The notes beneath the pieces were generated by a model that was given only the letters and a program-made list of their open reading frames with translations, was not told the DNA's origin and searched no databases. The position numbers and the translations under genes were made by a program. This document shows positions 34,084 through 36,044 of a stretch of 38,877 bases of DNA, in pieces (positions within the stretch are counted from its first letter, which is position 1; each line of letters opens with the position of its first letter). The stretch covers positions 1 to 38,877 of the forward strand of contig CABZDY010000004.1 of NCBI GenBank assembly GCA_902524635.1. Direction: 5' to 3'. Origin of the DNA: an uncultured Pelagibacteraceae bacterium. Its GTDB lineage: Bacteria; Pseudomonadota; Alphaproteobacteria; Pelagibacterales; Pelagibacteraceae.

Positions 34084-34120
34084 ACTAGTCCCCAAACTAG
34101 AACATTTAGAGATAAATCAA
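34084..34120 (+). repeat. left direct repeat flanking the nuclease gene
   Basis: actagtccccaaactagaacatttagagataaatcaa; 35/37 identical to 36008-36044. Confidence 0.9.
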
Positions 34121-34158
34121 ACTGAAAAAAAAACTGATTATGTTAGAATAATTAATTA

Positions 34159-35994
34159 ATGATAGTAAATCAATTAACAGAAAAAGACGTAAAAAAAAGA
34201 CTTAAAAAAATTAATATTACCTTAAAATCTAAATATACAAGAAGTAATAAAAAGATTTTTTATAAATGTAATATTTGTAATTATTCTACAAAAGCGACTG
34301 CTTATTATGTTTGGAATAAAGGCTGCTTAAATTGTAGAAAAATATTTTCAAAAAAAAATAATAAAAAAATTCAAATTCAACAAAAAGGCTCCCTTGCTGA
34401 TCATCCATATTTGGTAAATGAATATGATAAATCTAATCCGTTAAAGCCTGATCAGATTCCAAATACATCAAGAGACAAATTAAAATGGATTTGTAGTAAA
34501 TGTGGACACAAGTGGAAAGCTGCTCTTAGAATTCGTTTAAAACCATCTAATAAAAATCAAAAATATAGAAATTGTGAAAAGTGTGCACATAAAATCAGTG
34601 GAAATAATTTAGCTATCTCATTAATTAAAAAAAGAGGTTCTCTTAAAGATATGAGTCCCGAAATAATGAAAGAATGGGATTATAAAAAAAATGAAATTAA
34701 ACCAGAAAATATTTCACCTTATTCATCTAAAAAGGTTTGGTGGCTTTGTAGCAAAGGTCATTCATGGGAAGCAAAACCATCAAACAGATTAATCGGCAAA
34801 ACTAATTGTCCTGATTGTAATAATTTCAAAACCTCTAGAGCCGAAATAAGAATATATTCTGAATTAGTAAATATAATAAATAATGTAAAATGGTCATTTT
34901 ATTTGGAAAAAAGACAATTAGATATTTACTTACCTAATCAAAAAATCGCTTTTGAAATTGATGGCCACTATCACAGTAACAAAGAAAAAAGTGATATAAA
35001 AAAAAATATTTTTTTTAAAAAAAGAAATATTAATATTATAAGACTTAGAGATGTTGGTTTAAAAAGCAAATTATCTTCTTTAGATTTTTTTGTTGATACT
35101 TCAGAAATTAAAATAAATGATCTTCAAAAAATTTATAAAATTCTTTTGAATACAAAATTATTAAACAAAAAAGAAACTTTCGAAGTTAAAAAAAGATTAT
35201 TAAAGAATAATTTTTTTAATGATGAGGAGTATAGAAGAATATGTAGTTTTCTGCCTGGACCTCCACCAGAAAAAAGTTTTGAGATATTAAAACCTGAAAT
35301 TTCACTAGAATGGGATTATAAAAAAAATTTTCCTTTACAACCAAGTATGTTTACAACTGGATCAAATCAGAAAGTAAGTTGGTTATGTTCAAATTGTGGA
35401 AAATCATTTACTCAATCAATATTAAACAGAACCAATGGTCAAGGGTGTAAACAATGTGGTAATAAAAGAGGGGTTATTAAGAGAGTTAAAAAGATAATTA
35501 AAGAAAAAGGCTCTCTCAAAAAGAAATTTCCCATTTTAACTAAAGAATTTTTAGAATTTGAGAATAAAATAAAAGCTGAAAATGTGCCTATTACGAGCAA
35601 AATGTACGCATGGTGGTTTTGTGAAAAACATAATCACAAATGGCAAGCTTCTGTATATGATAGAACGATAGGCGAAAGACATAATTGCTCTTTATGTTAC
35701 AGGGAAAATCAGTCAGAAATTACTAGACTTGCTAAGTTTAATAAAAAAAACAGTTTTCAAAAAAAATTTCCTATAATATTTAGCCACATCCTTAAAGATA
35801 AAATTAAAAATATAGATCTTAAAACTATTACTTATGGTTCAAAAGTAAAACTATGGTTTAAATGTTCTAACAAACATATCTTTCAATCTAAACCAAATAA
35901 TCAAACTTCTGATAAAAAAGATAAATTAAAATGTAGAGATTGTTATGATCAAAGAGTAAAATTTGAAGTTAATAATATCATCCTCGGTAAATAG
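34159..35994 (+). CDS. multi-zinc-ribbon (DUF4379-like) protein with central PD-(D/E)XK / Vsr-DUF559-like nuclease domain
   Basis: Repeated G-S-L-x(n)-EWDYKKN...W(W/L)xCxxxHxWxA...NRxxGxxCxxC units; central TSRAEIRIYSEL...RQLDIYLPNQKIAFEIDGHYHSNKEKSDIKKNIFFKKRNINIIRLRD. Confidence 0.85.
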   Translation: MIVNQLTEKDVKKRLKKINITLKSKYTRSNKKIFYKCNICNYSTKATAYYVWNKGCLNCRKIFSKKNNKKIQIQQKGSLADHPYLVNEYDKSNPLKPDQIPNTSRDKLKWICSKCGHKWKAALRIRLKPSNKNQKYRNCEKCAHKISGNNLAISLIKKRGSLKDMSPEIMKEWDYKKNEIKPENISPYSSKKVWWLCSKGHSWEAKPSNRLIGKTNCPDCNNFKTSRAEIRIYSELVNIINNVKWSFYLEKRQLDIYLPNQKIAFEIDGHYHSNKEKSDIKKNIFFKKRNINIIRLRDVGLKSKLSSLDFFVDTSEIKINDLQKIYKILLNTKLLNKKETFEVKKRLLKNNFFNDEEYRRICSFLPGPPPEKSFEILKPEISLEWDYKKNFPLQPSMFTTGSNQKVSWLCSNCGKSFTQSILNRTNGQGCKQCGNKRGVIKRVKKIIKEKGSLKKKFPILTKEFLEFENKIKAENVPITSKMYAWWFCEKHNHKWQASVYDRTIGERHNCSLCYRENQSEITRLAKFNKKNSFQKKFPIIFSHILKDKIKNIDLKTITYGSKVKLWFKCSNKHIFQSKPNNQTSDKKDKLKCRDCYDQRVKFEVNNIILGK

Positions 35995-36007
35995 GATTTT
36001 ATAGGAT

Positions 36008-36044
36008 ACTAGTCCCCAAACTAGAACATTTGGAGATAAAACAA
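36008..36044 (+). repeat. right direct repeat flanking the nuclease gene
   Basis: actagtccccaaactagaacatttggagataaaacaa; 35/37 identical to 34084-34120. Confidence 0.9.

Follow-up and report, generated by a model that had tools for sequence, protein, structure and literature searches.

A nuclease gene in a Pelagibacteraceae genome as probable cargo of an integrase-less cassette at the 5' end of a conserved gene

Results

A nuclease gene between repeated sites

In a contig of an uncultured Pelagibacteraceae bacterium (CABZDY010000004.1, assembly GCA_902524635.1), of which we analysed a stretch of 38,877 nt (the window), a gene for a large nuclease-like protein lies between a short ORF, orf85, and a conserved gene, s75 (Table 1). 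The order of features is orf85, R1a, a truncated s75 start (the 'head') directly joined to a 'tail', R2, the nuclease gene, a box, R1b and s75. R site is our term for a whole unit made of a two-fold direct repeat CTAGTCCCCaaaCTAGAACAT plus GAGATAAA, with half-sites that read CTAGTCCCC/CTAGAACAT in the window. The 611-aa product has five DUF4379 treble-clef domains (E 9e-66) and matches PHROG profiles of HNH/homing endonucleases (best E 7e-27), while a PADLOC search with it gave no match. Such a nuclease (E <= 0.001) was found in just three of 61 related genomes, the window's own included, and one genome, G024, has related nucleases at the same s75 site.

Table 1. Features of the nuclease locus (positions in the window)
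Feature	Position	Strand	Remark
Putative right-end remnant of an older cassette: box TAGGATTTTATA, then R-like site (AACTAGTCCCAAACTAAAG)	33479..33530	+	remnant status inferred
orf85, 85-aa ORF	33601..33858	+	left neighbour
R1a, R site	33857..33894	+	left of the left junction
Head, truncated s75 5' end	33907..33975	+	left half of attL; 22 open codons, then TAG
att core GGAAGCTGGCGATTATTT, left copy	33948..33965	+	common to attR and four attP sites
Tail, left arm of the cassette	33966..34081	+	begins directly after the core; 10-nt tandem repeats (CACACTACCT type)
R2 (34083-34120, left 37-mer) within integrase N-terminal stub	34082..34159	+	stub reads KLVPKLEHLEINQTEKKTDYVRIIN, then stop
Cargo gene, DUF4379 / homing-endonuclease-like nuclease, 611 aa	34159..35994	+
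Conserved right-end box TAGGATTTTATAGGA	35992..36006	+
R1b, R site of attR (right 37-mer)	36007..36044	+	leader of s75
s75, conserved 75-aa gene	36058..36285	+	integration target; 5' end cassette-supplied
att core GGAAGCTGGCGATTATTT, right copy (attR)	36099..36116	+	2151 bp from the left copy

A preliminary description of this DNA, made from the letters alone, had placed the nuclease ORF between direct repeats of 37 nt, and both the ORF, nuclease-like by its domain matches, and the repeats were found as described (34084-34120 and 36008-36044, 35/37 identical, spacing 1924 nt). The genome of 928,836 bp contains just these two copies of the 37-mer at up to three mismatches and no match to a reversed control pattern, so the pair is not a product of chance; with a single pair of copies genome-wide, a dispersed repeat family was rejected as a reading of R. 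A riboswitch or other known RNA was dropped as well, since neither the window nor two relatives had an Rfam match at the gathering threshold. Three features had been missed: the two-fold direct repeat inside each 37-mer, a diverged third copy (81% identity) at 33858-33894, and a 62-nt repeat (33906-33967 and 36057-36118, 76%, spacing 2151 nt) that corresponds to the 5' end of s75. The first ~62 nt of s75 recur after the third R site (33907-33969), the match ending at GGCGATTATTT.

The right-end box

The same description noted that TAGGATTTTATA occurs at both 35992-36003 and 33479-33490 and that the stop codon of the nuclease gene overlaps it. Both observations are correct, the first bases of the right-end box supplying the stop, but the conclusion that the inserted gene abuts an older repeat did not hold, as TAGGATTTTATA is the conserved right-end box of the cassettes themselves. 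The longer form TAGGATTTTATAGGA stands directly 5' of R at 27 of 35 cassette right ends, against none of 27 host-side R sites beside orf85, and it was absent from this position in the three circular elements compared (0/3). For the upstream copy of TAGGATTTTATA, with the R-like sequence that follows it, we favour an origin in an older cassette, of which it would be the right end. Some cassettes are without the right box or without matching R2 and R1. A truncated copy of a common signal-peptide start (ATGAAAAAACTTTTAGGGATCGTGGTTCTGGG) was seen just before the right-end box, in the window (33443-33475) and at right ends in many loci; many cargo genes start with MKKLLGIVVLGLL.

Empty, occupied and stacked sites in relatives

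s75 is present in 45 of the 61 related genomes, and the named neighbours are single cells of Pelagibacteraceae. We fetched 80 loci by similarity to s75, a choice that keeps their fractions from being population frequencies: 14 are empty, with orf85 within 120 nt of s75, no cassette and mostly one recognisable R (for example L106, L116, L115, L132, L134 and L113), and 31 have at least one head-tail junction upstream of s75, with other cargo in the same place. In empty relatives, one R and then an intact s75 come immediately after orf85. The cassettes measure 0.8-6.3 kb from core to core and can form tandem arrays of up to three (L175), or three plus a lone tail (G024). Among their cargoes are type I restriction-modification systems (L107, L131, L158), a type IIG-like protein (L108), helicase-like defence proteins (L136, L141, L174) and many secreted proteins.

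Two loci, L245 and L257, have a cargo-less form in which a single R lies between the head-tail junction and s75. This is, as expected, what recombination between R2 and R1b would produce, and it fits the earlier suggestion that cargo can be lost through the repeats; possibly, these two forms instead originated as cargo-free insertions. Relatives thus differ at this site rather than all carrying both repeats and the nuclease, and the proposal of a cassette is supported by alleles that are empty, hold other cargo or have a single R. What has to be given up is the role of the 37-nt repeats as its ends: they lie inside attL and attR, and the ends are formed by the shared core GGAAGCTGGCGATTATTT within the duplicated 5' end of s75.

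A fold search with the s75 model (pLDDT 85.5) returned no significant match. A piece resembling the 3' end of sodB was seen by eye in the window upstream of orf85 (~33522-33600), and in G011, G013 and G027 an apparent sodB, also named by eye, directly precedes s75.

Circular elements with the joint site beside an integrase

A scan of viral contigs by the tail pattern found nothing, and a scan by the core pattern led to L211, in which R, head, tail and R2 adjoin a 581-aa integrase with element genes on both sides, as in a joint attP. Altogether, four circular elements of ~9 kb have such an attP beside a tyrosine integrase, namely the IMG/VR contigs L211, L233 and L270 and an 8,864-bp contig of the Pelagibacteraceae genome G250, L237, which has their plan in circularly permuted form. 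We regard the first three as circles because of their exact terminal repeats (29, 81 and 98 nt, respectively), which are expected for circles. The 18-nt core is present in attL and attR of the window and in all four attP sites, with one mismatch, in L233.

The integrase of L233, with Y544 as its presumed catalytic tyrosine, matches PHROG_1 (E 8e-25); against Pfam PF00589 the integrase scores 26.1 bits, just under the cut-off of 27.1, whereas the PHROG match passes. The circles also encode an AEP/DUF5906 primase-helicase (DUF5906 match in L211, E 1e-12) and a RusA-like protein. No structural genes were recognised among their scanned proteins, and the scanned ORFs of L211 gave no Pfam match to AlpA, a 94-aa ORF being HTH-like by eye only. 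Integrases of the s75 type occur in one of 397 genomes of the family and related integrases in three of 397; head-tail DNA occurs in at least 42 family genomes. No helper with exactly the R type of the window was found.

Other elements also encode integrases. L238 (genome G305) and L239 (genome G241), which lie elsewhere in the chromosome, have primases together with distantly related integrases (about 30%). An element of ~20 kb (L281/L282; IMGVR_UViG_3300025425_002733, 393-500 and 21007-21231, minus strand) encodes a related integrase (31%); since it lies between a 3' fragment of s75 and an intact s75, a related element may target the 3' portion of this gene. Furthermore, Pelagibacteraceae genomes (G000-G036) mostly have one weak-scoring tyrosine recombinase of ~325 aa, and those of the sister family (G037-G060) mostly two strong ones.

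Integrase stubs and matched ends

The integrase genes of L233 and L237 have R2 within their first codons (MTEKLYQKLDQVEIKQ in L233), and because of this overlap a cassette that keeps R2 also keeps an integrase stub. In the window, the stop of this stub overlaps the start codon of the nuclease gene. Cassette L104 and the att site of L237 are nearly identical, agreeing at 153 of 178 positions including the integrase start (MTEKLGHKLCHKEINQ, continuing to a stop) before unrelated cargo begins. An integrase itself was found neither among 181 ORFs of the cassette loci nor in six-frame translations.

The two ends of a cassette also match one another. Comparing the left R2 with the right R1 of the same cassette, the second half-site is an exact 9-mer in 21 of 33 cases (mean 8.0/9), against a mean of 5.9/9 with 1.8 exact matches expected, and at most seven, in 5000 shuffles; R sites that face each other across the left junction match less well (mean 6.2, 3/21 exact). 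This pairing explains why the 37-mers around the nuclease gene are alike while R1a differs. The core of R1a is identical to that of R1 in L270 and unlike the usual R beside orf85. Moreover, R cores of helpers recur identically in cassettes: L104, L133, L139 and L164 have the one of L237, and L131 and L175 the one of L270.

A second target

The complete genome G086 has a cassette of the same architecture near alaS, at a terminator (L276 6362-6470; contig ~628,400). Its tail, R and box are those of the s75 cassettes, and 22-bp direct repeats GGGAAAAAAGGCGCTTAAATTA flank it. A target with its own 22-bp repeats suggests that sibling integrases with other cores exist. Tails without a head were seen in L255 and L258-L262. 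We had considered these as insertions at secondary sites, on the basis of a 7-nt match, and withdrew this reading, as the locus L262/L276 has a 22-bp core of its own and L258 a degenerate s75.

Discussion

The best explanation of the locus as a whole, in which we have good confidence, is that the nuclease gene is the cargo of an integrative cassette of 2,151 bp inserted in the 5' end of s75. On this reading, the integrase-less cargo cassettes at this site derive from a satellite-like element of SAR11, by which they are probably mobilised. In the proposed mechanism, the tyrosine integrase of a ~9-kb circular element would recombine its attP, composed of R1, the s75 5' end with the core, the tail and R2, with this core as it occurs in the s75 gene of the host. 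The left junction would then consist of the host's s75 start followed by the cassette tail and R2. At the right junction, the cassette's box and R1b would be followed by a new leader and start for s75, continuous with the remainder of the gene, so that s75 stays intact. The cassette would have retained the whole att site and lost the integrase save its first codons, and it carries one cargo gene.

At the level of sequence, the sharp junction, the position of the joint site next to an integrase and the second target in G086 give good support to insertion by site-specific recombination. That a helper integrase mobilises the cassettes in trans is what we infer from the retention of both ends by cassettes without an integrase, the R cores common to helpers and cassettes and the rarity of helpers. 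The R sites and the tail repeats are predicted to bind the integrase. A broader reading, to which we give an even chance, is that SAR11 has a gene-cassette system of its own. Integrase-less cassettes with a single gene or a defence operon, each having a full attachment site and the right-end box, would stack at s75 and, with other cores, at other targets; the integrases of rare satellite-like circles of ~9 kb would move them in trans, the R half-sites setting which helper pairs with which cassette.

The main rival holds that the cassettes are immobile relics, that is, autonomous elements at s75 that lost the integrase and other genes through deletion, gained genes and do not move now. This would account for the presence of only an integrase stub in every cassette and for the scarcity of helper integrases, but it fits poorly with dozens of different cassettes retaining tail, core and the two R sites as a set, with ends that match one another, with a right box common to cassettes and absent from circles, with the identical R cores of helpers L237 and L270 in cassettes and with arrays of up to three, and we consider it unlikely, though a serious contender. 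Homologous recombination alone, in which repeated leaders and s75 5' ends swap cargo with no integrase, seems distinctly less probable. The repeat of about 110 nt (R plus head) on either side would suit it, the core with ~60 nt of s75 homology would indeed permit it, and the single-R forms L245 and L257 resemble its products; yet unrelated cassettes have a sharp head-tail junction, positioned at an identical base, the joint site adjoins an integrase in the circles, and the second target combines an unrelated 22-bp core with an unchanged tail, R and box.

The similarity of the DUF4379 nuclease to PHROG homing endonucleases, together with the related nucleases at the same site in G024, raises the question of homing, in which the nuclease would cleave an empty allele and insert a copy of its own gene there. 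We think this very improbable, because most cassettes at s75 have the identical type of ends without a nuclease. Scarcely any weight, and slightly less than for homing, is left for a host recombinase of the Xer type, which would move the integrase-less elements as in phages that use dif. Pelagibacteraceae genomes do encode one conserved tyrosine recombinase of ~325 aa, but a published survey reported that Pelagibacter ubique is without a dif/Xer system (PMC2731167), and the matching att site adjoins a different, element-borne integrase.

SAR11 are the commonest bacteria of the ocean and have small genomes. A single site with empty, single, stacked and cargo-less alleles, a candidate for the enzyme that moves them, and cargo comprising defence and secreted proteins bears on how the flexible genes and the phage defence of these bacteria are acquired and lost. 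One way in which the most abundant marine bacteria exchange genes thereby becomes directly testable, with a single integrase and a pair of short DNA sites.

In the open papers searched, we found none describing the s75 site. The circles resemble the PICMIs of Vibrionaceae and other small marine satellites such as VEIMEs and tycheposons (PMC10803314, PMC11389934) in being small and having an integrase (PHROG_1, L233) and a DUF5906 primase-helicase (L211; DUF5906/DUF3987 in PICMIs) with no structural genes found. They differ from PICMIs, whose insertion site lies downstream of fis (PMC10803314), in that their att core is in s75 of SAR11; AlpA, another PICMI trait, gave no Pfam match among the L211 ORFs scanned. 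Tycheposons and VEIMEs are packaged in virions or lie at tRNA genes; the target in SAR11 is a protein gene. With CALINs, the integron cassette arrays without an integrase, the SAR11 cassettes share arrays, repeated recombination sites and, putatively, an integrase from elsewhere; unlike in CALINs, the site includes a host gene start and an integrase stub, and insertion would take place at a double-stranded core common with s75. As to the integron traits, attC sites and an IntI-type integrase, Rfam gave no match at the gathering threshold in the window and two relatives, and the integrase matches PHROG_1.

A close parallel is provided by the integrase-less ssrA islands of Dehalococcoides, for which the status of cis-mobilizable elements (CIMEs) has been proposed (PMC3146451). 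As in those islands, attL and attR with a common core flank the window cassette, whose one cargo gene is the nuclease and which has no integrase of its own, elements lie in tandem at one gene, and related integrase-bearing elements use the same site (here L211, L233, L237 and L270). The SAR11 cassettes depart from them in the type of integrase, tyrosine here and serine there, in having the 5' end of a protein-coding gene as target, in their far smaller size with mostly one to few cargo genes, in the conserved right-end box and in helpers that are rare and found as small circles. By anatomy, we regard the SAR11 cassettes as CIME-like.
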